Source: Polytrichum commune
Taxonomy: Eukaryota > Streptophyta > Polytrichopsida > Polytrichales > Polytrichaceae
Reading direction: 5' to 3'
Assembly: GCA_950295325.1 (NCBI GenBank)
Contig: OX485804.1
Coordinates: 27,468,001 to 27,532,000 of the forward strand
Length of the DNA: 64,000 bases
In this document: positions 8,376 to 55,539 of the stretch, one piece after another
How positions within the stretch are numbered: the stretch's first letter is position 1
Layout of the letters: each line of letters begins with the position of its first letter
The notes under the pieces: model-generated
The model's database searches: none
Seen by the model: the letters and a program-made list of their open reading frames with translations, nothing else
What the model was told of the DNA's origin: nothing
Made by a program: the position numbers and the translations under genes

Positions 8376-8409
8376 CGTCGAAACTCAACCGAACTACAGA
8401 TTCTCCGAG

Positions 8410-18986: not shown

Positions 18987-20062
18987 CGCCGCTCCACTCC
19001 CGCGATCCTCTTCTCACTCTGCGATGGAGATAAAACCTAATACGAGAAAGAAGAGAAAGAGCCCCTTTCTGCCTGTCCCGGCGTTAGCCAGTTAGCTAAC
19101 CTTTTTCCGTCACAGAACCATAACTGGGCCCACCACCCACCGTAATAATCCAGGATACTAGCCCCAAGAAGCTGACGTGGCATCCAGGTCGGTAACCTCA
19201 TTTGAGGACCTCGACTTGGACCATAAGGACTCATCAGAGGTGCACCGATAACGAACAGTTTACTGACTTTGCAACATGGAATGCGTCCTCGGGGTCTTCG
19301 AATGAAGGAATGAGATGACGGGATGGTCTCAAGCTGGAGTCTTACAAGTTTAGCGGGAACCACAAATTCGAATTTTCAGATTTGGAGCGGATGTTTTTGC
19401 TTCAATATGGCGAAATCTGACATAGGGTTTAGATGATGGTGAGTAGGTTAGGATGATCTCCTGAGTAGGTTAGGGTGACTCTTGATGATCTCCGACATTG
19501 GAGTTGCTTCCTTCCTGCTTCTGTGTGTGATTTTCATTCAGAAGTTGATGTGCTGGCCATGCTAAGTCTATCCTGTCTGAGTTAAGCTTACTCGTTCAAG
19601 AGCCTCCTCGTTTGGGATGCAGGGACACCACGCCAAGTGTTATCAGAGGTCATGTGAATGTATTTGAATGACATTAGGATGTTGTCGCGGAAGACGTAGA
19701 TTTGCGTGTGACATGTTGGTGTAGGGAATTCCTTAGTGCACATCATCACTTGGATGGAATCCGAGCACACGTTCGAATTTCGTATGATAACTTAGGGCAT
19801 AGTATATCTAATGCAACCAGAGTCGAATCAACCGCAAGCGGCGCTTAAGCTATGTTCTGACGATGCTAATAAACGCTTGTATGTCTTCCTGCAGAGATGT
19901 CGATGATCAACTATGGAAGGCACTGATATGTGCAAACTTTTAGGTTTATGTACAAATTTGTTGGAATTGCCAGTGTTAGTGCATTCTGTGACCCTGCGAG
20001 GAACAGATTTGTTTGATTTTTTCTACGAGTCGAAGGATTAGGTCGGTCGGTTTTGGAGTAAG
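18987..20062. promoter_or_regulatory. Divergent intergenic region, putative bidirectional promoter
   Basis: 1.08 kb between the start of the DNAJC25-like gene (-) and the start of the 475-residue gene (+). No coding evidence. It must hold both 5' UTRs and promoters if both genes begin where proposed. I do not identify specific elements. Confidence 0.4.
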
Positions 20063-21490: not shown

Positions 21491-24400
21491 AGTATATCTA
21501 AGCCAATTCTGTTAGTTTGTATTTCAATTCTTCACAAGAGGACTCTCAGGTGTTATTGGGGTGAGGCGGACTTTTTGCGTATCGCAAAAGAGCGTGTATG
21601 AAGGGGCTACACTTTTCCCACCATGCCCTGTTGAGACTATCCAATATTGATCTGAAGGAAGTCGCAGAGGAGGAGAGAAAAAACTAACACAATACTGAAA
21701 ATTGTTTTACTTTCTATGCCGAAAGTGTGCTGTTTTACCTGGCAGGTCTTGAAATGTATTAAATGGTCTGTTCAATAGTGGAGGCATTCTTTCTATCATC
21801 AAACTTAGCCCTTTGCATCAACGTAGTAGCTCCATCCCTGGCAGTGACATCATGGCTATCAAGTTGGGATCACTGATTGTCTCTTACTCAACATTATTTG
21901 TAGCGTCAGGTACTTTCTTCCATATAACTTCAACTTTCTTGCATAGTGTGTTGGTTGTGTAGTTCCTCATTGCAAGCTCCTGTTCTGCCTGTTCATCCTC
22001 TCTGTTTCTTGGTACGCCCTGACATATTCAGAACTCAATAAGTAGGTGGTTGCTCTGTTATGTGATGTACGCTGTGTGAGGAGCTCACAAGTTGGTGGGA
22101 AGTGATGCTGGCTTGTCACTGCCGTGTATTTTGATTTTGTTGGTACACAAAACTGGTGAGATAGCTGCAAAGTCTTGATTGCAAATGTCTATTAAATCTT
22201 GAACAGGAAAGAAAAAAACCATCAGTTTCATTTGTTCCCTTCGTATCTGTTTGTCCTGTGTCTACTATCCTTCCCAAAAAGCCTTGTACTCCTGTATCTG
22301 ACTTCTTATACATAATGATGCATAGTTACCTTTCTTAAAGTGCAACGATGTGTTGCAATGGTTGGGATTATTATAGGATACATGGGATATCAGTATATAC
22401 ATCAGATACTCTGGAATGTTTAGATAGATGAGTATATAAGTTTCGAAGTTTCTGACACTTCGTGGGTTTGGTCTAGTCTGAGGTGTTGGTTAGGCTGTGG
22501 TCGGAAATGTTACTGAGCAATGCCATTGACAATATTCATTACTTATCTAACTGCAGGTCGGCTGGTGTGATTGCTTTCATGGGGCTCATGGGAAATGCAA
22601 ACCATTGGCTTCCAAAGCAAGAGGTATTACCTAGAAATGGCATGCCTATTCTTGTGGAGATAGACTGCATAGGTGATGGCTTGTAAGCATTGGTGGTCTA
22701 TAGTTCTGACTGCCCATCACAGGCTGCTCATTGCATAGACCCACCAGTCTAAAAAAAATTTGTTGATTCGTTTTTGAAGGACGGATGTGATACTGATAAT
22801 TTGGACAACCATGTCTTGCTATCTGAGAAACCTAATGCATGATTTACCAAGAGTAGCCTTGGGAGGGTTAAGTAGTTAATTAGAAGCACATGGTAAGGTC
22901 ATGGTATCATTGAAGAGCTGAACCTTCATTATAGAATGGTATCTTCCATCTTTTATTTAGCAGCCACTCCTCTTTCCCTTGAAGCATGGATAATGAAACA
23001 TGGGAGCAATTAGTGAGCAAGGAAACGTTTATTATTGATGCAAACATGTAGAGCACTTTGGGACAAGTGGCAATTTTCAAGCCCCTTCCGCTTACCTATC
23101 ATTAACTTGCTCTTTGCGTTACATTTTTGGGGAGGGAGGAGGGGGTGGAAGGAGCAAGCTCCTAATGGGAAAGGCAGTGATGGGGGGTTGAAGGTTCAAA
23201 TCTGATTAGACCCTTCAGCTCGCTCAATAGAAATGTGTCCTAGGCCAGGAATTTGCCATGATTTTAGTCAAGTCTCAAAGTAATCACAATATAAGGTATG
23301 TGGGTTTTATTCAGTGTGGAGATGTTAACCATATCCAACTCGAAATTGTTTCAGGATTTAATCTTAAAACTTTATGTGTGAATACAGTTTAAAGCCTGAG
23401 AAATACATGCTTGCTACAAAGATGCTAACCAACTTCAGGATTCTGCTACTCAGTAGACAACCAGAATTAGCAGTGTCATCTGATGTGAGGTGTTTCATTG
23501 ATAATCAACATTGGTTAAGGTATTCAGTCCTCAAATATGTAGATCATAAATTAAGTATATAATACTTATCCAAATACATGTACTTCAATAACATTCAAGA
23601 GCAAGGGACACAACATGGTACATATGTACATGTTTCTGTGGATGATGGAAATGGATTGCAATGATTCCTTTTGTGGATTCAAATGTACAGAATAGTTTGT
23701 TTTTCAACATATGCTGTATGAGTTGCCAACAAAGGAAGCAACAGAGGGCTCATAATGTGACGACATAGCCAAAAACCAGTGGCATTGCCTATGTTGGAGC
23801 CTCCACTCACTTGCTTTTGTCATGGTGGGCTACAAGATGGACTAGCCATGTGTGCATATAGGTCATACTATGCCTCCACCTTTATTTTATCCTATCGAGG
23901 GACCATTTTATATATATATGTATACACTATTCACTCCTTATTTCATGTAGAACATATGTTTCATGTCCATCATATCTTAATTTAAGATGTCCATAGTGGT
24001 TGGGGCTAGTGCTCATGCCATTTGGGTTGGCCCCGGCAGTGACACCCCCTTTCCCTCCATGATGGGTCATGATTTGGTTGGATGGGGCCCGCCCAAATGG
24101 CTTGAGCTCTAGCCCTAGTCCATAATAGGTCACAAAACAAAAAGTACACCTACTATGTTAAGATGCATATAACCAAGCATTTATTGGCCAATGTGCAATG
24201 GACCCCATCACAACCCAACAATCTCCCCCCTGTGGGCTAGGGTGAACCAACCCGTACATTGATTCCTTGGAGGCAAGGGTTTAGGCATCCAAATCCCCCC
24301 CGTGGGAGCCAATGAGGTGTGGACATCACATCTAAATGAAAAAAAATGAAAATGCTCATCTTAGGCCCATACCACGCGGGGGGCAGGCAGGTTGAATTGG

Positions 24401-24782
24401 GGGCCCTGATTGGGTGAAGAGGCCCCCCACTTACCACACAAGCGGCAATTTCCGCGGCGGGAAGATGACGTGGCAAGGTGGACTTCACCTTAGAATTTCC
24501 GGGGGGAAGAGGCTGGCAATATGTGTTTACAGGGCACAGGGCCCACCCGGATGTCTCCCTCCTTCGTCTCCGTCGCGAGCTCCCTCCTCGCTCCTCGCCC
24601 CTGTCCTTGCTCCTGTCCAACCTTGTCGCCCCTGTCATCGCTCCTCACCCTCGCTCGTCGCTCCTTGCCGAGGCTCCTCTCTCCTTGCCATCACCATCTC
24701 CGGCACCACCCTCCCGCTCCCCGGCGCTTCCCCCCTCCTCGCCGCACCATTTTTCCATGGCTTTAGAAGAGTGGGGAATCAA
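21491..24782. other. Intergenic region, no convincing gene
   Basis: Downstream of the 475-residue gene; its 3' UTR should lie in the first few hundred bases. I see no further gene. A foldback sits at 23991-24129. The stretch from 24.2 to 24.78 kb becomes GC-rich and leads into the Harbinger-type ORF1; the left terminus of that element should be here, but I did not find a clear inverted repeat. Confidence 0.45.
23991..24129. mobile_element. Foldback/MITE-like inverted repeat
   Basis: Two ~43-bp arms pair with each other. The left arm contains 'GGGGCTAGTGCTCATGCCAT' and the right arm, read in reverse complement, 'AGGGCTAGAGCTCAAGCCAT', both followed by TTTGGG and GGCCCC-type blocks. The loop is about 50 bp. 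No target duplication could be fixed, so the class is uncertain. Confidence 0.6.
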
Positions 24783-25826
24783 ATGCTGTTTCTATATCCC
24801 CATTCCTTCATGCCTCCAATTCCAGGGTTGGGGTTCACAGCTCCCGCCCATGGTACTCCTAGCGCCACGGTCGATCTCACAGAAGGATCCCAAAAACGAA
24901 GCCCCCAAGAATCCGTCACGGACCACACCAAATCCAACAAGAAACGGAGAGGTCCTCAGAAAAGAACGGAAATTGTCGAATTGGACGACGCCAAAGAGGA
25001 TGTGGACCTCTTGAAGAATGCTAGCCACTGGAACGACCACTGGGCGATTCAACTCATTTCAATATGGGGGGAAATGCAAAACATTTTCAGTGCACCACCA
25101 AAGCAAGGTGAGCCTCTGTCTCTTCTTTTTTTTTTTTTTTTTTTTTTGGTGGGTTCATGTTATCGAATGCCCGCCAAGAAAGTGGAAACAGGGCTGCAGG
25201 CAACTGCAGCTTGTGAATACCGGGCATCAGGGCTGCAGCTTGTGAGTGGGCTGCAGTTGTTCGAAGCTTGGTTACACTGCAGCTGGGCTGCAACAGTTGC
25301 TCGCAGCCTGGCTGCTGAATTTTTTTTTTCAAATTGAATTCTGCATTCTGGTGTTAAATGTTGGCTGTGCACTGCAAAGTGTGACTATTGGGCCTCCTCG
25401 TTGCATTTTTGTCCGATGTTTTTTTTTTTGTTTTTTTAAATATTTTTTACTCGATGTTGGTCGTATGCGTAAACTTCTTTGAAGTCACATCGCATTCGCC
25501 AAATACTCTTTGGTGTTGTGCATTTTACGATTTTTGAGTGCGATTTGCAACGATGTGCAAGTGTGGACAATTGGTCCCGGTTGCACACAAAATCTGTGTC
25601 TCTTTGTCCGGATTTCACAAAAGATAGCGAAGCTTGCAGGAAGAAATGGAGTGCCATCTACAATGACTATAAAGAAGACAAATCCTTGAATATGAGGTCT
25701 GAATCCCAACGATCCGAGAAATGCCGTTGGTATCAACTTGTGGACGAGTTCATGTCAGACATGACACATATTGTTTCACATGCGCATGCGAGCGCAACGA
25801 ATCCAGATGGCCCGAAGTCCATAAGC
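24783..25826 (+). pseudogene. PIF/Harbinger ORF1 (SANT/Myb-like), left part, cut by the Ty3 insertion
   Basis: Exon 1 (24783 to about 25107) has a Lys/Arg-rich region with 'KSNKKRRGPQKR', an acidic stretch, and 'NASHWNDHWAIQLISIWGEM', the start of a SANT/Myb-like fold. A GTGAGC donor follows. The second exon (about 25540-25826) carries 'SEACRKKWSAIYNDYKEDK' and 'KCRWYQLVDEFM', the rest of the trihelix/Myb-SANT-like domain that PIF/Harbinger elements encode as ORF1 and use with the transposase for DNA binding. The frame runs to 'KSIS' and is then interrupted by the LTR starting at 25827. It resumes at 35688 in the same frame. I could not settle the 3' splice site. ORF1 family confidence is good; start codon uncertain. 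Confidence 0.75.
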
Positions 25827-26265
25827 TGTCGTGTAAATAACGATCGTGTATCACTGCAGCTCGAGTACCAACCACCACTAACAAACAACACTAAAACATA
25901 GCAAAGTCACACATAAACAAAACACCTCGACAAAGAAGGAAGGGAGTAGAACACTCATAAAAGCTCTAATTTCTCTCCAAATGCACACAACTAGTCAAGC
26001 TATCTCTCACTCCACCAAGGGAGAATCCAAGAATGTAAGTAGGGGAAGAAGAACTTAAGATTTATTGCAAAATCATGCAATCTACACCTCAAACAAGCTA
26101 TCTCCACACACTAACTCACAAGACTTGACTTGGCAAGAATGCCAAGCCAAGGAGGAGGCTCCTCACTTAGGAGCCTTTCTCTTCACATCTAGATTCATCC
26201 ATCCAAATCTAGATGGATGAAACCCAACGGATAAGGTGCGGCCGTCGACGCCGCATACCGTGACA
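25827..26265 (-). repeat. 3' LTR (left copy): 106-bp block plus 331-bp block
   Basis: Consists of a 106-bp block X1 (25827-25932; ends TGTCG...CGACA) and a block B (25935-26265) that is shared with 35357-35687. B ends CCGTGACA. The left copy of B is followed by GC and a second copy of X (26268-26373), so the LTR structure is not simple. Confidence 0.75.
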
Positions 26266-26267
26266 GC

Positions 26268-26373
26268 TGTCGTGTAAATAACGATCGTGTGTCACTGCAG
26301 CTCGAGTACCAACCACCACTAACAAACAACACTAAAACATGGCAAAGTCACACATAAACAACACACCTCGACA
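26268..26373 (-). repeat. Second copy of the 106-bp block (X2) next to the PPT
   Basis: Same length as X1 with about three mismatches. On the minus strand it starts TGTCGAGGTG immediately after the polypurine tract, which is where an LTR is expected to start. It is absent from the right-hand LTR. X has TG...CA ends of its own. Confidence 0.8.
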
Positions 26374-26385
26374 TGCCTCCCCTCA
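26374..26385 (-). promoter_or_regulatory. Polypurine tract
   Basis: On the minus strand TGAGGGGAGGCA directly precedes TGTCGAGG. This is the usual position and composition of the plus-strand primer of an LTR retrotransposon. Confidence 0.75.
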
Positions 26386-26656
26386 GCTGACTATGGAGTC
26401 CCGCCAAGCAGCTAGGACCAATGCCAATCTAAAGGGCATGGATAATGAAAGATTGCTCCGCAACTAACTAGTGTGGTAAACGTTATTCCAAGGAACTGTA
26501 GGCTGGGTGCAATGTGAGCCCCATCCTTAATCGCCTCTGATGTTTGGCCATCAGATCCCAAAGAATTAAATCCACCGCCTCATGTTGATTGCGTCTCTAA
26601 GCCATAACTCCTCATTTTCCATTTGGGCAGACACAAGATGATGAAACCACACAGGA

Positions 26657-28360
26657 TCATTGAGTACGATTGGTGGAAGCACCAAGTACCGAAGATCCTC
26701 GACAGCGAGGACAACTCCACTGTCCAGATGGTAGAGAAGTCAAGGGTGGCCGCAAGTATGCCATGTGCCAACCGCGTTGACATTGATCACACAAGAGCAT
26801 AGTAGCAGCTCCTTTCTTCTCTCCACACACAAAACATGGAAGACCCTCTGGCACGACGGCCAGTTCAGGATGAACTGTACCCTCAATAGGTAGATGACAT
26901 GGGGCACAGTTTTTGGAATGTTCGCGACATTGCCTGCCATCCTTGCCTTCCAACAACAACAAACCACTCGGCAACACCTCCTTCACCCGAAGGATAGTGT
27001 GCCCCGCCCTGACATCCAATGTCGTAGGCGCCTCACGTTGGAGATAGACATAATCCCCTTGCCGAAATCTCCGCAACTGAGGTCGGTAAGCACCACTACG
27101 AATGCGTGCATAACGCAATGTGTCACAGTGCTGAGCAATGGACAAATTCTCCATGGCCATAGGCATGGCCCTTTGGAAGAATTGAGCCCGCTCCTGCAAA
27201 CACTCTGCCCAAAAATCTGGGTTATCCAAGTTCACAACAGGAGCTAGTTTTTCCCGAATAGAACTCGGGAGTATAGGCTCACGTCCATACAATAATTGAT
27301 ACGGGCTGTAGGATGCCAGAGAGGCCTGCCTATTAAATCGATAGCCCATAGCAATCCATGGCAACATAAGATCCCAATCCCGGTGGCTTCCCCGAAGTAA
27401 TCCATACTTCCTCAAGCCACGCTTGGTTGTCTGAACAACCCGTTCAGCCAAGCCATCTGCCTCCGGATGATCCCGAGAGGTGGTGCGGTGATCTATGAGA
27501 GCCTTCGTGCACAACTCCTCAAAAGCACCAAGGAACTCCCTCCCTTGGTCCGTCAACACCTCAGCTGGTGCTCCAAAACGTGCTAACACACGATCCAAAA
27601 AATCGGCCGCGGCCAACTCTGCAGATTTCTGGGGTAGAGCAACAAGCTCAATCCACTTGCTAAAATGCTCCACCATCACCAAAACGTATTTTGCTCCACG
27701 TGGTGTAACCACCAACGGCCCTGCAAAGTCCAGCGACCAACGGTAGCCTAATCTCATGATAGGTAAGGGTTGTAACTGAGGTGATAAGGTGTTAAAGCTA
27801 GACCTGACCCGGTTACAAACTTCACACCTCCCGACATATGCAGCCACCTGCTGATACATGCCAGTCCACCAATATTGGCCACGCAACATCGAATGTGTCC
27901 TGCGTATGCCAAAATGGCCAAGTTCCTCGTGCATTTGTCGCACCAAGGAGGCCCTCTGATCCGGCCTAGGAACAATACGCCTTGTCCCATCCGGCCACAA
28001 TCGAAATAACAAACCGTTCTCCCAACGGAACCTTGTTATCCGATGTCCAATCCTATTCCTTTCCATTGCCGAAATAGACAAAGGAAAGGTACCCTGTTGA
28101 AGCTTTTGCAATACGGGAAGGTCCTCCCATATATCCGCAATAGCTTGAGGCCGATCAGTCTCATCATCCGAGCCCTGTATCGGAATCTCAACAGATGAAC
28201 CAGAAAATAAAGTGAGGTAGGCAGCCGCGTGCCAACCTGGAACCGCCTCTCGATCACAATCTCCATGCCACCTGGCCCCGGTCAAGTCCTCTTCCGAAGG
28301 ACTTGGATTGCGTGAGAGTCCATCTGCATCCATGTTGGTAATCCCAGCACGGTGTACCAC
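26657..28360 (-). pseudogene. Integrase with C-terminal PHD finger (end of pol)
   Basis: Open over 567 codons but without its own start; it is the 3' end of pol, separated from RNase H by a frameshift near 28385 and a TAG at 28376. Residues 144-182 hold the zinc-binding HHCC motif (H144, H149, C179, C182). The catalytic triad is D211 ('WSLDFAGP'), D271 ('LTDQG') and E306 ('DGLAERV'), with the D,D-35-E spacing. After a linker, residues 509-553 form a PHD finger: C509, C512, C524, C527, H532, then Tyr535 where Cys is expected, C550 and C553, with 'MLLCDQC', 'GWHM', 'RPPL' and 'PSGQWSCPRC'. Chromoviruses carry a chromodomain at this place; PHD fingers read histone H3 tails, so an integration-targeting role is inferred. 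The Cys-to-Tyr change (TGC to TAC type) probably ruins the finger in this copy. Confidence 0.9.
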
Positions 28361-29286
28361 CTCAAAGTCATACTCCTAGAGCAACAAAGCTTGCCAGTAA
28401 GCTTATCCGACTCCATGAGCCACCGTAACGGCTGATGGTCAGTCACCAAAGTAAAGTGTTGACCATAAAGATATGGCCGGAAATGGGCAATAGCCCACAC
28501 CGCCGCCAATGCTTCTCCCTCATAGGACGAATAATTAGCCTCCGCTGTGTTGTTGCTTCGCGACGCGTAAGCAACAACATACTCCCGGCCAACGTCATCT
28601 TTCTGGGTAAGAACTGCTCCCAAACCCAATGAGCTCCAGTCTGTATGCAACTGGAAAGATTTGGAGACATCTGGACGTCGAAGCATTGGAGCCGTACCCA
28701 GTTTCTGCTTCAATGTCTCAAATGCCTGTTGCTGCTCACGACCCCAAGTCCAAGGTTGGTCTTTGCTCGTGAGAATGGTGAGCGGCTTGGCAATCAAGCT
28801 AAAGTTCTTGACGAATCGCCGATAGTAATTCGCCAAGCCCCAAAAAGCACGAAGTCTCGGCACATCTACCGGTGCCGGAATCTTCTGCAATGCATCCACC
28901 TTAGCTTGTTGTACCCCAAGACCTCCTGGAACAATCATATGCCCCAAATATGCCAACCGGTTATGGAAAAACTTGCACTTGCCGTGATGCAAGCGTAATC
29001 CCCACCGCTGCAACCGTTCAAAAACGGCTTGCAGATGCCTCACATGCTCCTGTGGTGTTGTGCTGAAGATGATCACATTGTCTATGTAACACCGAGCAAA
29101 GGGCAAGCCAGAGAGAACCTGATCCATCACCCGCTGAAACTCAGCGGGTGCATTCTTCATGCCAAATGGAAGAAACTTCCAATGATAAAGTTGATCTTTC
29201 CCATCTTGATCAACTCCCCAAAATGCGGTCTTCACCCAATCTCCCGTAAGTAATGGAAGTTGGTGATATCCGGATCTCAAGTCCAA
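28282..29286 (-). pseudogene. Reverse transcriptase (C part) and RNase H
   Basis: 334 codons continuing the RT of 29277-29777 in another frame. Visible RT motifs are 'DLRSGYHQ', 'PFGMKNAPAEFQ' and the active-site motif, here YIDN (residues 67-70) instead of YIDD. The second catalytic Asp is lost by a GAC to AAC type change. The RNase H part follows, with 'LHTDWSSLGLGAVL', 'SYEGEALAAVWA' and 'VTDHQPLRWLM'. There is no ATG; the start is defined by the frameshift. The frame goes wrong again near 28385. Confidence 0.9.
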
Positions 29287-29777
29287 GTTGCTAAAGACCG
29301 AGAAAATCCGATGGCATCGAACAACTCCTCCGGGATCGGCATGGGATACCGATCCGACTTGGTCTTCCGATTAACTGGACGGTAATTCCCACACATCCGT
29401 TTCTCCGTCCAATTGCCAAAGATATCCTTCTTCGATGGCATAACCGTAGCACAAGCATACTCCCCGTTGGAAAGTTCGATTAGCCCTGCTGCCAAGAGCT
29501 CTCGGCAACGAGCCTGAACGCCAATCCGCTCGGAAACATTGAGCCTGTAAGGTCTCCGAAAAATGGGATGGTCGTCCTCCAACTGAATGTGGATGAGTTT
29601 TCCTTTATAACCTTCAAGATCCTGAAGGCTAAAAGCAAAACATCTACGGTACGAGCGAATAAATGCTCGTACCTTCTGTGCCTCAGCACCAGTGAGACGA
29701 GGGCCTAATTCAAGTGGCCAATCATCAAACTCTATAGTCTCCCTCTCCACCAAAGGAGAACCACCTGATGCTGGCAC
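29277..29777 (-). pseudogene. Reverse transcriptase, N-terminal part
   Basis: 166 codons with the segment leading into Ty3-type RT: 'DDHPIFRRPYRLNVSE', 'LLAAGLIELSNGEYA', 'MPSKKDIFGNW', 'RMCGNYRPVNRKT' and 'DRYPMPIPEELFDAIG'. It ends at a frameshift near 29287, after which RT resumes in the frame of 28282-29286. Upstream it is in frame with the preceding segment except for a TAG at 29790-29792. Confidence 0.88.
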
Positions 29778-29789
29778 AGACTCTAATTG

Positions 29790-30272
29790 CTAATGAGAGG
29801 AGGGGGCATTAACCATGCCCCCAGTCTCGGTACTAGTACTAGAGTCTGACATTTCTTCATCACCACCAATATGTGATGATGAAGCCACCACCGGAGGCGA
29901 AGAAACCGAAGCAATGTAAAAATGTTGAGCTCGAAGCTCCTCCATCACATGCTGCTCGAATTGAAAAATTCGTTCGGCTTCTCCAACCATGGCGTGAATT
30001 CCCTCCTCCATGGGTGTGGACCGCTGTGCCCCCTGACCAGAGTCCTCTGCCCCTAGAGATAACCATTGGTCACCACGATGCCTTTGCAATGAAAGGCATA
30101 AAGCAACAGTCCACACCATAGTATGAAGATCCATAGCTTGGCCCAACACGAAGCGTCGTTGGCCTTCAGAAAGGCCGGGGGCTGCGGTGGTGCCAGTGCG
30201 GAATCCCATGGCATGTTCCCGTTCGTCAGCCAATGGTTCGGTGTGGGTTTTGGTGTGAACATCCCACACCAT
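29790..30272 (-). pseudogene. Methyltransferase motifs IX-X and linker to RT
   Basis: 160 codons in the frame entered after a single-base shift near 30260. The first ~70 residues look like the C-terminal end of a DNMT3-type catalytic domain: 'EREHAMGFRTG' stands where the motif IX region (M-E-x-x-x-G-F-P type) is expected, and 'RRFVLGQAMDLHTMVWTVAL' fits motif X (R-x-x-x-L-G-x-(S/A)). The remainder is a Ser- and Glu-rich linker ending 'SSTSTETGGMVNAPSSH' at a TAG. The next codons continue in frame into RT, so the TAG probably replaced a sense codon of a continuous polyprotein. Confidence 0.75.
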
Positions 30273-31473
30273 ACCCGACCCCCTTATCTAGGAAAGCGAA
30301 TGACTGTGGAAACGTCATAAATGTGGGAAAGGCCCGCCGTGGTGCCCCCATTTTGTTGACCAATGCCAACGGGGGTAAATCATCTCGAACAACCGGCAAA
30401 GAAGTCCGGTTTGGATCCAAGATGTCATCCACCTTTTGATCAAAAGGTGGAGGCACTGCAGAAAATGTTGTAGCTAAAGTAGATGACGGTGCGAGGTTGG
30501 TCCAAATCCACCGAGGCCGGTGGGCATAAGAACCAATGCTCGCGGCATCCACAAAAATGGGATCTCCAAGGTGTTGACGAACATAATAATCGCCTTCCAA
30601 CACCTTGTCCCGAGAGTCTCCCAACAAAGGTACATTCTCGCAAATATACCCTGGAGGGAAAGGTTGGTGGGAATACCACCAGTGCATAAGCCGGAGGAGG
30701 TCCCAGAAAAGGCTAGACTTGGGATCCTCTAAACCTCGGCCTGCTCCAGCACGTGAGTGGCCTTGGCATGGCCATCCCGCAATCACCATATCCACCGGGC
30801 CCAAGTGTCGTAAGTCGGCCTCACTGATGAGTGTAACATCACGAAGGAGACGTGAAAAACACCCATGAATGGCAGTTGGGTGTAACTGCTGGGGGTACAA
30901 TACCATCAACTGGTGAAGATGGTGACGAACCACACGGGTGGACACTGGAGAGTTGTCCACATAGACATACCGTCTGACCGTGAGGCCAACCTCCAATACG
31001 GCCGCTAAGCCTGTGCCGATGCCCCCAAACAGTTCCATCAAAGTAATCCCCGCGTCTGACGGCTGCCATAAAATGGGATGTGCCAATGCCGAGAGGACAC
31101 CCGGTATGACCGGTGTCCTAGGAGTGAGAGAATGAACAATATCCTCGCACCTTCGAAATAGCTCGGCGGAATCACGCCAAGGAGGAAGGGGATCCTTGGG
31201 ATGGTGCACCAATGCACCATTAGGTGCCATATTCCGTTGATCGTCTGTACTCCCCATGAATGCCAATGACTCCTCCAACAATGCGGAACCATAAGGCAAT
31301 GTGTCCACCATAGCACCACATCCAAAAACCATAGATAATGGTGCTATGGTCGCGGCCGCCGCGAAAGCCACGGGAATAAGTTCCCTGCGGCCATCCCCAG
31401 CCGACCAACCTGGTCGAATCCACGCCTCCTCAGTGCAGTTGTCCAAACCAAAACCAAGAGGGTAAAGTGCTTG
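30226..31473 (-). pseudogene. C5-cytosine DNA methyltransferase domain inside the Ty3 polyprotein
   Basis: A 406-codon frame (first Met at 31446) in frame with the protease upstream, separated from it only by a TAG at 31474-31476. Numbering from that Met: motif I 'MELFGGIGTG' at 137-146 (AdoMet binding), motif IV 'AGWPCQGHSR' at 223-232 with catalytic Cys227, motif VI 'CENVPL' at 269-274, motif VIII 'YAHRPRWIW' at 307-315. 'FPTFMTFP' near 373 begins the region leading to motifs IX-X, which continue in another frame (29790-30272). The unrearranged I-IV-VI-VIII-IX-X order with a short target-recognition stretch, and 'GPVDMVIAG' before PC, point to DNMT3-like rather than DRM or MET1. Such enzymes transfer a methyl group from AdoMet to cytosine C5. 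About 100 unrecognised residues precede motif I. Confidence 0.92.
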
Positions 31474-31983
31474 CTAACCAACTAAAATGTCATAGTTGGT
31501 CGCATCCGTCACCGCACACCTAAGAAGAAGAGGTGCGGGTGAATCTCTAGGCTTCACTCGGAAGCTAAGCTGTAATGGCTCTCGAGTATAACCCATGGCC
31601 CGCTCCACGTGACCAATGGATGTGACAATGGTAAATGGACAGGGAGCCAAATCCTCGGCCGTCAACCTCAACTCTTGGGCAAGCCTCTTGCCGATCATAA
31701 CTGGTTGTGCCCCTGAATCCATCATCACACAACGGGGAGCAACCCGAGTAGCATTGCTCCCAGTGCGACTGACCACCAAAATTCTGGTATCATTCACCAT
31801 ACGCACAACGCCGGGTCGAATACCGCAGCGCTCGCGGACAGGTCTAGCAGCGACATCAGACAGATAGGTTGCACCCGCGGATACTGGTGAGTCATAAGAC
31901 GTGGTCGGTGTCTTGTCATCTGAGGCGTGTGCGTCAAAAGACGCAATGGTCTGCCGCAAGTCTCGCTTGCCGTTTGGCCACAT
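31474..31983 (-). pseudogene. Retrotransposon aspartic protease
   Basis: 169 codons with the pepsin-like retroviral-type active site 'VMMDSGAQPVM' (D89-S90-G91) and a downstream 'TNYDILVG' close. It overlaps the end of the gag frame by 50 bases in a +1 relation around 'GTCTTTTGAC' (near 31937), which may be a decay indel or a frameshift signal. It ends in TAG (31474-31476), after which the same frame continues 'QALYPLGFG' into the methyltransferase segment. Confidence 0.85.
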
Positions 31984-33731
31984 CCTCAGGATCTTCAGAA
32001 GCAGGGATGTCCGTAGTGGCTTGAGCCACGGTCAGAGAAGGTAAGGATGCCTTCCCTTCCAAAATCCTACCTGCTAAGTGAAAAACCTTAGCAGGTTGGA
32101 ACTCTGGCGATGACCATTCCATGGCCGTGAACAAAGGTGTGTGCAACACCTTGGATGCCAACGTGTGTGCCACATCAGTCGCTGAATGTGAAACCTCATC
32201 GTTCGGATGACGACCACTGACAGATTGGACGGCATCGGCCAATCCAAAAGATAATGGTAGTCGTGCCTGACCAATTTGGTCCGCGGGCGCATTGTCCCAA
32301 GCTTGCGAGCTTGCCACATATTCATTTGTAGTCGAAGGTATGGATTGTGACACGGCTTGAGCACGTGTCATGGCCGCGGAACTCACCACCTCGCCCGAGG
32401 CTCCGAACATATAGTAATCCGGAGTGGAAGAACTAGCCTGAGCTCCGGAGGAAGACGGTGAGGCCAAGATTTGGCCGGATGACGCCAAGCTTTTGAACTT
32501 CTCCTCCATGGCTCCAATCTGCTTTGGTAACTGATTACCCGTCGTCCCCTTCGCCGAGCCCTTAGCGGGAACAAATGGTTTCCGCTTCGGAGTAGTGACG
32601 GTCTGGGCTTGCCTTTGCTTTGAAGGACAGTCCTTCTTAGCGTGGCCGACCTGCCCACAAGACCAACAATACATGGTCTTGTCTACCTCGGCCTCCGCCA
32701 ATCCCGCAGCCGCAACCGGAACCGCAATCAGTGGCATCGTGCTGACATAATGCACGATCACACTGCTCCACCACGGCGAATGTCTCTGCGAGTGTCGCTC
32801 GACCACCAAACTCCATGATGATCCTGGGTAACGCCAAGTCAATGAGACGTTTGTCAATCTTTGACAAAAACACCTTCACCAACTGACTTTCCGCGAACAC
32901 ACCTCCAGATTCTCTGGCAAACCTCGCCAACCTCGTATACATGGTACGAGGTGTATCGTCCTTCTCCCGTCTGAAATCTTGTATCCGCTGCATCTGGTCA
33001 CGACGGAAGCCTCCGTACTCCCCCTGTAGATGTAGCTCAAATACCCGCAATGGCTCAAACTCTTGCGGAGCCCCTAAAGAGGCTAAAACCGCTTGGGTGG
33101 CCATGGCATAACGCGATAGTGGAAGAACTGGGCTCGACGTACTCACCGCAGTGGGAGCAGGACCCGTAGCCCTCGGCTCACCAGGAGGAGCTCCCTCCAC
33201 ATCCACCACATAACCTCCCTCCGGTACCTCTGTCTTGACATCTGGAACGGCCATGAAATTGGAAGCTGCGCCTCCCTTCAATGCGGATACCAACTCAACC
33301 CGAGTCTCCCAGTACCGCTCCACCTGGCGCAGCTCCATCCAATGAGCCTCCGTCCACTGCTCATAAGTTTGGAGAGCTTCATGCTCCAAATGCTGAGGCA
33401 GAAGCTCAAACGCATACCAATCGTTAAAATTGGTATTGCGTTGGCGTTTCTCTCGCATCCACGTACGAAACCGGATTTTCCAGTCTTGCAGAGAAATGGT
33501 CCCTGCTCGACCGGAAAACCGGTCCCGTATCCCTCCCCTAGTCTCCTCCTCCATGTCGTCAAAGGTTCCCACCCACAGGACGTGAGACCGAGTGATAGTC
33601 CCCCACGCCGAAGTAGGCTGAAAAGCCTCATTGGGTGCTACCACTGGTTCAACGTCCGAGAGGTCCGAGAGATGACCTTCCGATGCTCCTGGGGACGGAG
33701 AACGATAATGCTGAGTACGAGTTGTAACCAT
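31934..33731 (-). pseudogene. Gag with CCHC zinc knuckle (frameshifted)
   Basis: Starts at ATG 33731. The first frame (33731-32637) is a Ty3-type gag: basic start 'MVTTRTQHYRSPSP', then 'LQDWKIRFRTWM', 'LRVFELHLQGEYGG' and 'VEQCDRALCQ'. A frameshift near 32735 moves the gene to the frame of 32857-31934, which carries the knuckle 'CWSCGQVGHAKKDC' (C-x2-C-x4-H-x4-C). A Ser/Pro/Lys-rich tail follows and stops at 31934 in an overlap with the protease. Gag packages the RNA into virus-like particles. Confidence 0.88.
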
Positions 33732-35356
33732 AAACCCACAATGGGATGGTCACCGAATCAACAACCCAAATGAATTAGTATCCAGGTACAAAGAGAAAAA
33801 GGGTCAAAGGCAACCTGCACTTGCAACCACCACCAAAACTTATGGTCTGCTGGTCATTAACCCAGCCTCACCACAAGTGAAAATAAGCACCGCCCATTTG
33901 GTGCACAAACAAAGGTCCCGTCGGTCATTAATCCGACCTCACCTCCACAGTACCCTATCACAATCTAAGACTACACAAAATGGGGTAGTGCTAGAACACT
34001 CCAGCACTACAGCCCGCCACAGGGGAAGGTACCAAAACAAAATACAAGGAACAATGCAAGAACAACACTGGATCATCTTCCCCAAAACAACATTCAAGCA
34101 GAAATTGAAAACGACCGCAACCAACTGGCACCCGCCTGCAGTTGGTGGTCAAAATAAAGAACCCCTATTGCTTAAGAAAAGAAATTGCATAAGCACATCG
34201 TTCATTTTCCCACCACTACCTAAGAATCTCTCCTCACAACAATGCCGGGAATATGTGTTGATAAACACAATTCGACCTTAATAATAATTTATTTTAGGCC
34301 GAACGTAAATAACACATGCCACCCAATTCCCAATAACATTTCTTTCGGAAATTTTGTACAACACAACTCCTAAAAGAAATCCCAAATATGTTTAATACTT
34401 CATAAGAGCTTAAGTTTTTTTTTTTTTTTCTAGTATCCTTGATTAATGAGCCCAAGAAATTAACCTCTTAGAGAGAAGAGAAAGGATTAGAAGTTGTAGG
34501 AATCTAAAGTAATTCATTAATTCATTAAAATAAAAAGAATCCGGTTTTTAATTATTAAATTTAAAAAATCCGGTTTTAATTAATTAATTAATTAAAACAA
34601 AAATAAAAACAAAACAAAAATAAAATGTAACCGGTTGGACTTGCAAACACCTAGGCCCCAACCAATTAAGCCCAAAAATATCCGACCAGGACCTCAACCT
34701 GGTCGAAAATGCCCGAAAATCTTCGTCCACCTGGCTGCCAGGGCCTCACCCTGCTACGCCCACCAGAGTCTGCTTCCTGGCTGCCAGGGAGGTAGCCAGG
34801 GTCTCACCCATTTATGCCCAAAAATCTTCGTGTTCCGTAGAGGCCAAGAAGTCTGGCTAGGTCAGCTGGATGTGACCTCCGGCTATCTCGCCGAGGTCCC
34901 GAGTTCGAATCTGGGCTCGGGCGACTGCGGGCCAAGTGGCGGGCCACCGCAAGGCACTGACAGAAACCGGACAGCAGCGGCCAGGAGCCAGAAACCAGAA
35001 GCTACACGTTCTTCTAATTTTATTTTATTTTGAATTTTGAATTTATGTTTTCTTGAATGAATGAATCGCTTTCGAACACAAACAATAATTGTTTCTAACA
35101 GCTTAACGCCGTGAATTCAAGCTTGCAAGCACTCAATTGACATAAAATTCTGTGGAGAATTCAACACCTTATCACCACAATTCACCTTCACGTGATCTTT
35201 ACAAGCGAGCATTCTTCATGTTGCTTCACAAATCCGCGGTGTTCTCGCTCCGGAACTTCACAACATCGTCACTCCTTGTCTTCACGCCCTCCCTTGCGCG
35301 TTACATCTCAAGAATGAAGAAGAAAATATCAAAGATGAAGCATTCTTGCCAAGTGA
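33732..35356 (-). other. 5' leader and unshared part of the 5' LTR
   Basis: No coding potential. It contains an A/T-rich stretch (34.4-34.65 kb), a pair of direct repeats around 'ctggctgccaggg' (34725-34830) and a tRNA-like segment (34851-34925). A possible left limit of the 5' LTR is TGTTTTC at 35047, which would make that LTR about 640 bp. I found no clean primer-binding site complementary to initiator tRNA-Met. Confidence 0.45.
34851..34925 (+). repeat. tRNA-like segment (SINE-head type)
   Basis: On the plus strand, antisense to the retrotransposon, 'TGGCTAGGTCAGCTGG' fits a Pol III A box and 'GAGTTCGAATCTG' fits a B box 35 bp further on. The T-arm pairs partly, but the acceptor stem does not close, so it is not a functional tRNA gene. 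It is either a tRNA-derived SINE head inserted into the leader or, because its complement lies on the retrotransposon RNA strand, a trace of copied primer tRNA. Confidence 0.45.
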
Positions 35357-35687
35357 GAAGGAAGGGAGTAGAACACTCATAAGAGCTCTAATTTCTCTCC
35401 AAATGCATACAACTAGTCAAGCTATCTCTCACTCCACCAAGGGAGAATCCAAGAGTGTAAGTAGGGGAAGAAGGACTCAAGATTTATTGTAAAATCATGC
35501 AATCTACACCTCAAACAAGCTCTCTCCACACACTAATTCACAAGACTTGACTTGGCAAGAATGCCAAGCCAAGGAGGAGGCTCCTCACTTAGGAGCCTTC
35601 CTCTCCACATCTAGATTCATCCATCCAAATCTAGATGGATGAAACCCAACGGATAAGGTGCGGCCGTCGACGTCGCATACCGTGACA
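35357..35687 (-). repeat. 5' LTR (right copy), part shared with the left LTR
   Basis: 331 bp matching 25935-26265 at the same length. By eye there are about 11 mismatches, nearly all transitions. On the minus strand it starts TGTCACGG. Beyond 35357 the two LTRs stop matching. Confidence 0.85.
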
Positions 35688-35790
35688 AAGCGCTTCGGAC
35701 ACCAACACCACGGAACACAAGAGTGGGGAGAACACATCAAAATCTTCAGAGCCCAAGCGCAAGGAAGACATTTTCATGGAACTATGGTGA
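35688..35790 (+). pseudogene. PIF/Harbinger ORF1 (SANT/Myb-like), right part
   Basis: Directly after the target duplication, the frame broken at 25826 resumes as 'SASDTNTTEHKSGENTS' and runs to 'PKRKEDIFMELW' before TGA at 35788. Further in-family sequence ('KSLMDSLKATDEMKMAYS') continues in another frame to about 35880, so the 3' end was frameshifted. The exact continuity across the retrotransposon shows that the insertion hit this gene. Confidence 0.75.
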
Positions 35791-36066
35791 CATTAGAGAA
35801 AGTGACAAGAGTCTCATGGATAGTTTGAAGGCTACTGATGAGATGAAGATGGCTTATTCATGAGCATGCAATAAACAATGCAAAAATTGGTAGAGAAGCT
35901 CTAAGTAGATGTTTTTTCAAACATTGTCCAACGTAAAAGTATGTGCAATGCAGGCCTTCGTCTTTGCCATTCAAAAACTTCTTGCAATGCTATTTCATTT
36001 TGTTGGCAGCTCTTTGAATGATTTTCCGCCAGTGCTCGTTGCAATCTCGAATTCCATGGCCGCCTC

Positions 36067-37323
36067 TTATTTTATGTATTCCAAAGTTTTTCTAGAGTTG
36101 TCGTCAATGCATGCTAAGCTTTGCAATGCCAAATTGACAACTGTCAGTCGTTCTTGTATGGATGCACTCGGGACTTTTGCGATGGCAAGTCCATTGTGCA
36201 CCTCATCAGTAGCCTCCCGCATCCACTCTTGTTTCCAAAAGTTGTCACCGAAAATTATGCACATGTTGTGCAGGACCAAACACGTCGAAACCAAATCAGA
36301 CACATTCTTCAAATGCATATCCACCCTCTTCAAGAGAATTCGCCATCTTCCTTTGAGCATTCCGAATGCTCGCTCAATGCACATGCGTGTGGAGCTTTGG
36401 ACATAGTTCCAGTGAAACTCCTCCCGTGACAGCCCATCTTTGTGACCTTTGAACGTAGCCAACATCCAGGGACGACACACGTACGCAACATCGCCAACCA
36501 AAGCATATGGTAAGAGTTTGTCCGCCTCACAGTACTGTCCGATCTCAGTCCTAGCCCACAGGTTGGCATTGTGCATCAAACCCGCCCAGCCTATGTCAAA
36601 ATCCCAAAACAAACATTTTTTGGATACTACGCCCTGCAATAGGATTGAATGGAATCTTTTGCGGTTGTAGTAATCGGCAGCATGCAATCGGGGAGCAACG
36701 ATGGATATGTGGGAGCCATCGACCGCCCCCATCACGTACAGAATCTAGTGGAGGTCCTGAAACTCCTATGCATATCTCTCCATAATGGCAAGAGAAGGCC
36801 ACTTGATGAATTTCTTGAGCATATTTGTTTTTATGGCAACACAGAATTGGAAGACTGCTAGCTGACTAGATGAGAGACCAATCTTATACAAATCCGCAAT
36901 GCATTGCGTAGAATTATCTGTGGCCAATCTTGAAATCGATACAGCAACCTTCACCTGGACTGGAATGGCTAACCGCATGTTCATATCTTGTCTCTGCAAA
37001 TTGGGTGCAAGAGTACTACATAAATACTCAAATGTCGAGACGTCCATACACATGCGCCCTTTGAACTCCCTTGCATTAAATGAACCCAACAGGTTTTGAT
37101 TGAAGAAACCAGGTTGGTGCACCCCTCTCTCGTGTACCCACAACCGTTGTTGCCGTCTCCAATGCAAGAGCTTGAATCCGTGCAGTGCAAGTATCATGCA
37201 ACACAGTTGTTGCCAATGCCACAGAAAAATCGCCTCCTCATCTCTGGACATACACTCCAAGGTAGTAAACAATGAAAGCTGAAAGAGGAGAAAAATTGTG
37301 AGCTTGTGGACGTCGGGGTCCAT
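36067..37323 (-). pseudogene. PIF/Harbinger DDE transposase, two in-frame stops
   Basis: One continuous frame from ATG 37323 to a stop at 36067, interrupted only by TAG at 36766-36768 and TAG at 36745-36747. The N-terminal half has the helix-turn-helix-like part ('FKGRMCMDVSTFEYLCSTL', 'AIPVQVKVAVSISRLAT'). The C-terminal half is a DDE_4 domain: 'GAVDGSHISI' (first D), 'VGDVAYVCRPWML' (second D) and 'CIERAFGMLKGRWRIL' (E). Both TAGs lie in the conserved stretch just before the first Asp. The transposase is on the opposite strand to the SANT-like ORF1 and converges with it, a normal Harbinger arrangement. The enzyme would excise and insert the element at TWA-type targets; this copy cannot make a full protein. 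Confidence 0.9.
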
Positions 37324-37731
37324 CTTTACAAAGTTTGCTCTCGGAAGTTAACTACAACAAAATACGTCTTTTATTCCAACACCCACTTCACTACATGTCT
37401 TTTACTACTATAAACAATGATTGGAGGAATTATAGAAATCCACCTTTGCTCATTTCATGTCCGAATTAACTTTGTGGAGTCATGTTAGTGAAGTGGGACA
37501 ACAATTCAATTGGGAACGCACTTGTAAACGCGTTTGGGAACATCTAATAGAACATGCATGACTGTAGGTAGTGAAGTGGTCGATTTGGATTTGTCAAGTC
37601 AAAGTGTCATATGTTTCAAGGGTTTAGACTGAGTACTCACAGAAAATGATCCATCATTTTTTTTTAATTCATAATGAAATGTACATATTTGTACATAATA
37701 AAGCATTTCTACTCATCCAACATATTTTAAT
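37324..37731. other. Spacer between the Harbinger transposase and the CACTA fragment
   Basis: No coding signal. The right end of the Harbinger element and the left end of the CACTA fragment should both be here. I did not find a convincing inverted repeat for either. Confidence 0.4.
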
Positions 37732-40260
37732 TTAATCTGTTTGAGCAGTTCTATCTTTTTCAATTCCAAATTCATCCTCATCTTCATAAGACGGTTCATA
37801 CTCATTTGTGTTCAAAGCTACAACCACTTCATCGTTGCTTAAAATTATAACCTCATCCAAGATTGGATCAGTTGGTGTTGCATCATTCTCTAAAGATGCT
37901 GGTACCAATTCACAATGCTCTTCAACGTTGTCTAGTGATAGGCATCTTATGTCCGGTATAAAGTCTTTACTAGAAATAACTCTTGTTCCCCTTGGTTCTT
38001 TCCGTAGAACCACCTTCCATCCATGATTGTTCAAATCATCCGCAAAGAAAACTTGTTCAACATGGAGTGAAAATGCGAAAGATTCAGCTGATAATGGTAC
38101 CAATCTATCAAAATTCACTAGACTAAACCCATAATCATCTCGCTTTATAGTGGCATTGTGTCCAACCATATTTGTCATCACCTAATTACAATACAACACA
38201 ACCAATTCATATCGATCATAGTCCACCGCCAATATTTCCTCCACCCATCCCACATACTCTAAGTTTCATGCCTTCAAGTTCTTGGTATGTACATTTGACC
38301 GACAATTTTGGGAGAAGGTGGCGGCCACGCCAGAGTCGACTGTTGTCAATATTCCTTCTGCACTATGCACACGGATATGGTTTCCGAAAGCATTCATGAA
38401 TTGGTAAGATGTTGCTTGGCTAGAGGGTGGAAGAGACAAGACCAACACATCTTCATCAATCTCCTCTCCCGCTGCTTTGGCACGTTAAACCTCTGACTTG
38501 AACCAATTGTGGAAATGCTCATTTTGGAAATTTTCTGGATAAACAATCATGCCATTTCGTTTTTTCCTTCGATATTCCTTACGATCCAATTTGCGTTGTG
38601 TCATACTTGCAGTGTGGCGCATGTAAAATAACATAATTTTGTGATGCCTTTTATGTTTGTAAAGTATACAATCTCTAAGCATACATAAGTGGCATGTATT
38701 GGTGATACATGAAGTTTTTTTCATTACAAACCAAATTCATTTTCAATTTGCATGACATAAAATATGATTTCATTCTTTGGGTATGAACACTCTTTTCACA
38801 AATATCAAAACATTGTGCATTGGTGATGAAGTAACTTACTCTTTCCACGACTCCAAGGGAGCCATATTATTCACCACAAATTCATGTATCCAATCGCGTA
38901 TCTTGGGTGTTAATATCCTTGGTTGCCCAACACCTTCTAGTATTTCGTCGTTCATTGTAGGATCCTCTTTATCATCCCATATCATATGACTTGTAATGGT
39001 ATATGTTTGTATGTATTTCGTGCAAAAGCCAAGCGCTTTATCTATGACATATCCTTCGGCCATACTAGCTTCGGGTCTTACACGATTTCGAACATAGCCC
39101 TTTAATGTCTGCAAATACCTTTCCATAGGATACATCCAACGGGCATGTACGGGCCCACAAATATCTAATTCTTCAACCAAATGCACCAAAAGGTGCGTCA
39201 TGACATCAAAAAATGCCGGTGGGAACTTTATTTTGAGCATGCAGAAGGTGATGGCCGTATCCTCTTTTGATTCATTCATTTCCAAGGGATTGATGGTTTT
39301 AGCACATAAGCGTTTGAATATGCGGCTTAATCTTATTATACATATACGTACATCTTTTCTCATGATTGTGCGTATACAGAGGGGCAAAATTTGTTGCATA
39401 AAGACATGGTAATCATGGGATTTCAATCATTTCAGGCTTCCATCCACGTGAACTTTTTTTCGCAATTGGCCAACATAGTGAGTTGGAGTTTTCGACTGCC
39501 GCACAACATCCACGAATACCTCATTTTCTTTCTTTATAAGCACATACGAAGCTTGTGGCAAAGTTAGGCTTCCTAATTTTCTCCCCGGAATGGACCACAA
39601 ATGCGGCCGTTTGTTGGTTTCTTGTAAATCCATGCAAGCCTTGAGTGTATCCTTCTCCCCAAATAGGGTTTTTATGAGACTTTCTATTATGTTTTTCTTG
39701 CAATGCATTACATCCAACGTATTGCGTATAAGAAGGCCCTATTGGTCCACATAATATCAGGGTAAGTATATTATCTACCAAATACCATATAAGAAAATTT
39801 TACAAAGTGTTACAACAATTGTTGTCCGATATGACCATACCATTACTTATATAAGTATTGGAATATTAACATGACTACAACTACATGTGTTCAATTACCT
39901 CCAACAGTCATGTTCATTTACTTCTAATAGACATGCATTACTTCTCATAGTCCCGGTCGACATTTACTTTCGCAGTTACACAATCAAATTGAACCCTTTG
40001 TGAAATTATGGTGTTCAAGTAGGGCCCATAAGACTTGGTCAACAATACCGGGAATATGAGTCGCCAGGGTGTACCTTCCAATATGGTAATGCAAAGAGTG
40101 TGTTCTTCCTCTTCACTCCATGCTCGTGGATTGGATCCAGTTTGTCTCCTTCTTTATTTCCGGTTGATCCTGCCAACCAATGTTCTCTTTGTTTTGCAAA
40201 CCGCAAAATATCGCGTGGAAACAATACCCGCAAAACACCGTGTGAGGAAGTTGGGTCAGG
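37732..40260 (-). pseudogene. CACTA (En/Spm) TNP2-like transposase fragment
   Basis: Read on the minus strand in order. About 40250-40085 has 'RVLFPRDILRFAKQREHW' ending 'FALPYWK' at a GTACAC donor. At 39717-39427 lies 'DVMHCKKNIIESLIKTLFGE', a tnp2 C-terminal signature. At 39426-38836 lies DUF4218 ('CGPVHARWMYPMERYLQTLK', 'RPEASMAEGYV'). Further pieces lie at 38724-38485. DUF4216-type sequence lies at 38448-37732 ('VHSAEGILTTVDSGVAATF', 'NNHGWKVVLRKEPRG'). In-frame stops separate several pieces, for example at 39427. The N-terminal half of TNP2 and the terminal repeats are missing, so it is a decayed, 5'-truncated copy. It is a different copy from the one at 50 kb and clearly diverged from it. 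Confidence 0.85.
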
Positions 40261-55448: not shown

Positions 55449-55539
55449 CTCCCCTGTATCCACGTAGTTGATTATAAAAAAATACTCATACCAGCAGTGC
55501 CAAATTGATTCCGCCGTATTCATGTACTAATTGTATTCA

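Follow-up and report, generated by a model that had tools for sequence, protein, structure and literature searches.

A Ty3/Gypsy-type retroelement of Polytrichum commune with a DNMT3-type methyltransferase and a proposed role in the methylation of its own cDNA

The closest known system to the element presented here is KnitGypsy-Dnmt3 of Klebsormidium nitens, for whose methyltransferase (MTase) purifying selection is reported (de Mendoza et al. 2018, PMC5890265). The MTase of SymbioDIRS-Dnmt3, from dinoflagellates, was shown to methylate CG in yeast, and the authors do not regard the two retrotransposons as related (PMC5890265). That mobile DNA should carry an enzyme which its host turns against it is a paradox, set out in 2018 with a single Gypsy case, from an alga (PMC5890265). 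A preliminary description of the DNA analysed here, made from its letters alone, had referred to methyltransferase-bearing retrotransposons of charophytes and dinoflagellates, correctly so (PMC5890265). The window, which is the whole stretch analysed, comprises 64,000 nucleotides of Polytrichum commune (assembly GCA_950295325.1, contig OX485804.1, positions 27,468,001 to 27,532,000). It holds a decayed retroelement of Ty3/Gypsy type, about 9.9 kb long (25827-35687, minus strand), with a DNMT3-like MTase. With moderate confidence, it is proposed that a family of such elements in bryophytes took in and kept a DNMT3-type MTase, and that this enzyme methylates new complementary DNA (cDNA) in particles before integration.

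Along the minus strand the order is repeat A, a long leader, gag, a CCHC knuckle, protease, MTase, reverse transcriptase (RT), RNase H, integrase, a PHD finger, a purine tract and repeats B, A and B (Table 1). The motif and Pfam positions bear out the initial statement that the MTase lies between a protease (DSGA) and a Ty3 RT on the same strand. The order RT-RNase H-integrase with Ty3-type domains, characteristic of Ty3/Gypsy, is found both in the window and in an intact relative, L007 (contig CADCWO010000201.1), an element of 9158 nucleotides with overlapping ends of 127 nucleotides. In L007 two open reading frames (ORFs), ORF1 (gag-protease-MTase) and ORF2 (RT-RNase H-integrase-PHD, 1047 residues), are both open, adjacent and in the same frame, separated by a single UAG. 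Compared with this layout, the window copy has five frameshifts (gag/knuckle, knuckle/protease, within MTase, within RT and RNase H/integrase) and one extra stop, with damage also to the YxDD motif of RT and to one zinc ligand of the PHD finger. The window copy is dead, and these lesions confirm the decay noticed at the outset. L007 is filed in a cyanobacterial metagenome bin (Synechococcales cyanobacterium) whose name we take to refer to desert soil crust. Another relative, P0011, is filed as an Obscuribacterales 'DNA cytosine methyltransferase' and is a retroelement sequence of plant type. The bacterial filing of both looks like contamination and could mislead annotation.

Two protein searches, each scoring the best ~8000 candidates only, returned 51 relatives with the window MTase as query and 35 with the L007 protease-MTase. 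Two were common to both, which leaves 84 distinct relatives and, with L007 and the window ORF, a set of 86 sequences, many of them fragments. In 23 of the 86 the protease motif shares a frame with MTase motif X, a count by motif patterns that omits rows starting past the protease motif or varying in it. Three of the 23 are from Marchantia, and an RT motif occurs in none. The preliminary description had named an isolated insertion of the MTase in one copy as the finding that would overturn it; since the protease motif and motif X share a frame in these 23 sequences, the opposite was found. As an explanation, an isolated insertion or a host gene fragment in this copy only is practically negligible: relatives whose protease and MTase share a frame refute it, and nothing was found in its favour. 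Judged by the reading frames, the relatives show that the MTase belongs to the element family and is not a stray insert.

The plant-named relatives are annotated gene models from Sphagnum troendelagicum (P0041, without motifs VIII and X), Marchantia polymorpha (P0192, P0194, P0196-P0198) and Calypogeia fissa (P0193, without the protease motif). The other relatives in which an open frame spans both protease and MTase come from metagenome contigs. A second layout, RT-RNase H-MTase-integrase-PHD, is seen in P0202 (1966 residues), where MTase and integrase share one frame. In a tree of 51 MTase domains, which comprises element MTases matching at least 260 profile positions and omits shorter and bacterial rows, the window falls in a 25-row clade with L007, separate from the liverwort and Sphagnum rows. 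With the tree rooted at its midpoint, and subject to long-branch warnings, P0202-P0204 take the outermost position. Compared with the whole window, the element stretch (24000-38000) matched, apart from its own repeats, only a few very short segments. Two single sequences are recorded here for themselves. The last ~170 residues of P0202, past the PHD finger (LDPWAGNPAVSKAFRQQG...), resemble by eye a second, different methyltransferase-type fold, and no Pfam match falls there. P0035 joins MTase and integrase pieces in 281 residues and is either the product of an internal deletion or an assembly chimera.

The MTase ORF (30226-31473, minus strand, 415 residues) matches the Pfam family DNA_methylase (PF00145, 1.9e-10) and DNMT3A (6.7e-12). 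Its frame contains motif I (31035-31015), motif IV (GWPCQG, 30777-30760), motif VI (ENV, 30642-30628) and motif VIII (AHRPRW, 30525-30508). Motifs IX (30227-30201) and X (30146-30123) lie past a frameshift in the adjoining ORF (29790-30287), and are in frame in L007. The earlier claim of ordered motifs I to X thus stands as to their presence and order, with IX and X displaced into the neighbouring frame. The C5 MTase motifs follow the normal order of the DNMT3 family and not the DRM-type order, and the profile scores are 62 bits for DNMT3 against 23.5 bits for DNMT2-type tRNA methyltransferase. The catalytic residues are kept across the alignment, with motif counts taken over the rows (domain pieces) that reach each column. 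By profile and predicted fold the element MTase is nearest DNMT3A/B, in a ranking by similarity (profile, fold Z) and not in a tree, which agrees with the DNMT3-like character first assigned to it. In the predicted fold of the L007 relative, the Z lead of DNMT3 over bacterial enzymes is 2 to 3. The PDB profile was built from 13 of the 86 sequences and the fold from 47, hand-picked for length and spread. A prokaryotic or phage origin was considered and rejected: none of 107 phage and 28 plasmid records covers 80% of the query, and at six IMG/VR loci at most 218 of 637 residues match. All of these look like ordinary bacterial-type MTases.

The UAG between MTase and RT is followed by CAA-UUA in the window and by CAA-UCA in L007. 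Both match CARYYA, which after UAG is a readthrough motif of plant viruses (PMC3542737). This context follows 4 of 1512 UAGs in the window (both strands, the element's own included) and 2 of 190 in L007. The combination of UAG-CARYYA with an open downstream frame lacking an early start is present, the early start having been examined in L007, where ORF2 has no Met before residue 117. Because the MTase precedes a UAG with the leaky-stop motif, it should, on these sequence grounds, be made with Gag, in Gag-like amounts and in excess over RT.

The PHD finger at the integrase tail, absent from the preliminary description, scores 4.3e-10 in L007, with complete ligands, against 5.4e-9 in the window, and occurs also in P0202 and P0203. 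Among its solved relatives by sequence (best 60 of 95) are CHD4, PHF12, UHRF1, KDM5, PHF21A (BHC80) and ATXR5, several of which read the H3 tail. Chromoviruses carry a chromatin-type domain, the chromodomain, at the integrase tail, the place held here by the PHD finger. No chromodomain match was obtained with Pfam at the integrase C-terminus in the scanned ORFs of the window and L007, so that this hallmark of chromoviruses is absent from them. No report of a PHD finger in a Ty3 integrase was found in open-access PMC, among the matches listed, and its presence in place of a chromodomain is apparently new.

The element had been placed inside long terminal repeats (LTRs), which is not exact: its ends are split direct repeats, A-body-B-A-B. 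The order A1-body-B1-A2-B2 is that of DIRS/PAT elements. The two equal terminal LTRs of Ty3/Gypsy are not seen in this one copy, which has A at the 5' end and B-A-B at the 3' end. The copies of A differ at 11 of 332 positions (ten transitions) and those of B at 3 of 109 (two transitions); this excess of transitions fits the decay of methylated DNA and proves nothing. A presumed GCTT target-site duplication flanks the TGTC...GACA ends, as expected of a DDE integrase, in the one copy. Random 4-mers of the window agree at a rate of 0.0043, which is higher once the choice of boundary is allowed for, and the first three GCTT bases recur after B1, so that the boundary of the duplication could be set otherwise. 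The inner B1/A2 junction reads GACA-GC-TGTC, as though two ends had been joined, and is identical in L007. An exact 18-mer match to this junction in IMG/VR contig L012 was dismissed as chance, as the stretch around it has no repeats of at least 40 nucleotides and carries ORFs that look phage-like by eye.

Just inside A1 lies a presumed priming site complementary to a segment of A1 itself. L007 has a 13-nucleotide match at the corresponding place, with compensating differences, and 0 of 2000 site shuffles were as good, in the window and L007 alike. These matches suggest that reverse transcription of the element may be self-primed, a mode already predicted for the Tcn1 and TAR elements of plants (PMC6317226). 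A tRNA primer was set aside because the TGG that the site after A1 reads in the window is not kept in L007, where it is TGA.

In the proposed course of events, gag, protease and MTase would be translated as one polyprotein, and the leaky UAG would let a small share of ribosomes continue into RT-RNase H-integrase-PHD. The MTase, present in Gag-like amounts, would be packed into the particle, where it would methylate the fresh double-stranded cDNA, probably at CG, before integration. Reverse transcription would perhaps be self-primed. The PHD-bearing integrase would then insert the cDNA into chromatin selected for the state of its histone H3, the integrated form being the permuted A-body-B-A-B. 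The new copy would arrive already marked. The likely gain would be that the host does not encounter this copy as foreign DNA lacking marks, or that the copy is sufficiently silent to spare the host. Among the guesses at what the enzyme does, action on the cDNA of the element itself has the best support, by analogy with the CG methylation that the dinoflagellate enzymes carry out in yeast.

Several observations weigh against this proposal. In yeast, no methylation was obtained with the MTase of KnitGypsy-Dnmt3, a result that the authors regard as inconclusive (PMC5890265). The fold Z is nearly as high for bacterial C5 MTases (4dkj 25.6, HhaI 24.9). Between the window and L007, identity is 64% in the MTase core and 64% in the protease, 79% in the first RT piece and 86-88% in most of RT and integrase; the MTase thus diverges faster than most of RT/integrase and roughly at the rate of the protease. 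Synonymous divergence (dS) is saturated or near it in most pieces, and therefore divergence was expressed as the proportions of nonsynonymous and synonymous differences (pN and pS), which measure selection only roughly. Only two DNA copies, related to each other, show the stop context, and only one shows the 4-bp duplication and the permuted ends. In addition, the minimum-energy folds of both copies keep the presumed primer in its own hairpin, unpaired with the priming site.

Other functions can be assigned to the same proteins. The main target of the MTase might be host DNA near the insertion site, or the enzyme might damp the element to the host's advantage, with the PHD-bearing integrase bringing it to chosen chromatin. 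Animal DNMT3 senses H3, the PHD finger resembles those of CHD4, UHRF1, KDM5 and BHC80, and one element encodes both the MTase and the PHD-bearing integrase. On the other hand, in 23 of the 86 sequences the MTase belongs to the Gag side and its frame lacks an RT motif, and a main action on host chromatin is rated unlikely. The single frame of MTase and integrase in P0202 is another layout beside the Gag-side one and is relevant here. The domain might also serve in the particle as a nucleic-acid chaperone or an RNA methyltransferase, DNA methylation not being its job. The inactivity of the K. nitens enzyme on DNA in yeast and the RNA role proposed for the LINE type (PMC5890265) would suit such a use, whereas the retained catalytic residues and a profile that is DNMT3 and not DNMT2-type speak against it, and it is rated improbable.

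As to the ends, the repeats could be ordinary LTRs rearranged in one copy, the A-body-B-A-B order being then meaningless. Only one integrated copy was read, and a possible priming site after A1 and a purine tract before B1 stand as a normal B+A LTR needs them. L007 cannot decide the arrangement, because it holds the repeat once, as an assembly of either arrangement would leave. The rearrangement is nevertheless unlikely: the TGTC...GACA ends and the 4-bp duplication fall at the start of A and the end of B, L007 shares the B/A junction GACAGCTGTC, and this DIRS-like order is also that described for the K. nitens relative (PMC5890265). An improbable extension would link the MTase to the split repeats. 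A cDNA circle with two tandem B-A units would be opened by the DDE integrase at the palindromic junction GACAGCTGTC, and the MTase would mark or protect the circle. The inserted copy would be permuted and yet have a 4-bp duplication because the integrase opens the circle at the B/A junction. The same pairing would have arisen on a Gypsy chassis and on a tyrosine-recombinase chassis, the cases of the latter being the DIRS group with an adenine MTase and SymbioDIRS with DNMT3. Against this linkage, Ngaro and Viper have split direct repeats without an MT domain (PMC4157794).

Table 1. Features of the retroelement, in positions of the window. Pfam matches to the protease fall below the family cut-off in the window and L007.
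Feature	Positions	Strand	Basis
Presumed target-site duplication GCTT, 5' side	35688..35691	-	Matches 25823-25826
Repeat A copy 1 (A1), element start, begins TGTCACGG	35356..35687	-	332 nt, 96.7% identity to 25934-26265
Presumed self-primer segment in repeat A, part of hairpin	35550..35564	-	Exact reverse complement (15 nt) of 35340-35354
Presumed self-priming primer binding site, just inside A1	35340..35354	-	Reverse complement of A1 segment
gag, N-terminal part	32637..33731	-	ORF, ATG at 33731; 56% identity to L007 gag over 335 columns
gag C-terminal part and CCHC zinc knuckle (knuckle 32668-32627)	31934..32875	-	PF00098 E 1.2e-4; shifted frame
Aspartic protease, DSGAQP 31719-31702	31477..32031	-	Shifted frame; PF13650 E 0.0049 (7.8e-4 in L007)
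Extra in-frame stop, protease/MTase (decay)	31474..31476	-	Relatives covering the place read through
DNMT3-like cytosine MTase, motifs I-VIII	30229..31473	-	Pfam, profile; fold of L007 relative
MTase C-terminal part, motifs IX and X	29793..30287	-	Behind frameshift; 52% identity to L007
Presumed leaky stop UAG then CAA-UUA, MTase/RT	29790..29792	-	Same place in L007: UAG-CAA-UCA
RT, N-terminal part	29280..29789	-	79% identity to L007 ORF2; no Pfam match alone
RT and RNase H, shifted frame, YxDD damaged	28285..29370	-	PF00078 2.9e-25, PF17919 1e-35, PF17917 3.9e-33
Integrase (H2C2, rve) and C-terminal PHD finger, shifted frame	26660..28375	-	PF17921 1e-17, PF00665 1.3e-14
PHD finger, integrase tail	26702..26836	-	PF00628 5.4e-9; one zinc ligand lost in window copy
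Polypurine-tract-like GAGGGGAGGCA, directly before repeat B1	26374..26384	-	Read from sequence
Repeat B copy 1 (B1)	26265..26373	-	109 nt, 97.2% identity to other copy
Repeat A copy 2 (A2)	25934..26265	-	B1/A2 junction GACAGCTGTC; same junction in L007 at ~7049
Repeat B copy 2 (B2), element end ...CGACA	25827..25932	-	Repeat comparison
Presumed target-site duplication GCTT, 3' side	25823..25826	-	Outside GACA end

The neighbourhood of the element contains remains of DNA transposons. A Harbinger-type DDE transposase fragment (36067-36744; PF13359, 2.1e-28) lies a few hundred bases from its 5' end. CACTA-type remains are present at 53667-55526, 52218-52802, 51146-52006 and 38836-39426, by Transposase_21, DUF4218 and DUF4216 matches, the last just under the cut-off. 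An open frame of 482 residues at 20042-21490 is highly charged, repeat-like by eye and without a Pfam match at 0.001. A VID27-type gene (6696-8384) falls with liverworts and Physcomitrium in a group of 13 rows (97/99, with an open fork inside) in a tree of 30 hand-picked rows (the window and 29 of the best 120 of 965), in which the nearest rows are metagenome rows. No named row exceeds 63% identity to it among the matches listed; the highest-scoring named rows are Marchantia and Riccia, at 61%. This single gene places the host among the bryophytes.

No report of DNMT-bearing retrotransposons in land plants was found in open-access PMC, among the matches listed, and the available parts of PMC6453930 and PMC9516144 do not mention such elements. 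Against novelty in land plants, the available part of PMC12344493 has such DNMT3s reported 'in streptophytes', with the LTR type called Copia. DNMT3-bearing Gypsy elements in land plants are apparently new, and so, apparently, are an MTase ahead of a UAG with the leaky-stop motif and, in these elements, the split repeats A-body-B-A-B, as in K. nitens, with a possible self-priming site. The land plants with this kind of element include Marchantia polymorpha, a genetic model in which gene deletion, the reading of methylomes and the tracking of new insertions are feasible. The writing of chromatin (DNMT3) and its possible reading (PHD) are combined in one element.

The element shares features with each of several known systems. 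With animal DNMT3A/B the MTase has in common the motif order of the catalytic domain and the predicted fold, at ~22-25% identity in the structural alignment; unlike the animal enzymes, the scanned ORFs of the window and L007 gave no ADD or PWWP match in Pfam. The order RT-RNase H-integrase is that of chromoviruses, including the plant element Tcn1, which is also predicted to be self-primed (PMC6317226). Unlike chromoviruses, the window element has a PHD finger, no chromodomain match and an MTase; neither the word PHD nor methyltransferase occurs in the main text of PMC6317226. Split direct repeats A1-B1-A2-B2 are a feature of PAT elements, and a methyltransferase domain is one of DIRS-group elements (PMC4157794). 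That domain is a Dam-like adenine MTase (PMC5890265) and is accompanied by a tyrosine recombinase, whereas the window element has DNMT3, an rve integrase and a 4-bp target duplication. No phage-integrase match, as a tyrosine recombinase would give, was found in the scanned ORFs of the window and L007, which have the rve integrase instead. SymbioDIRS-Dnmt3 likewise combines a DNMT3-type MTase with the DIRS repeat arrangement, and differs in its tyrosine recombinase in place of a DDE integrase (PMC5890265). The comparison with KnitGypsy-Dnmt3 is by description and not by sequence, and no row named K. nitens is among the relatives from either protein search. Its host is a charophyte alga, PHD does not occur in the main text of PMC5890265, and no leaky stop or self-priming is seen in the available part of that source. 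As in the window copy, KnitGypsy-Dnmt3 has a Gypsy-type polyprotein with a non-rearranged DNMT3-type MTase, and a DIRS-like repeat order (PMC5890265, Fig. 4 legend).
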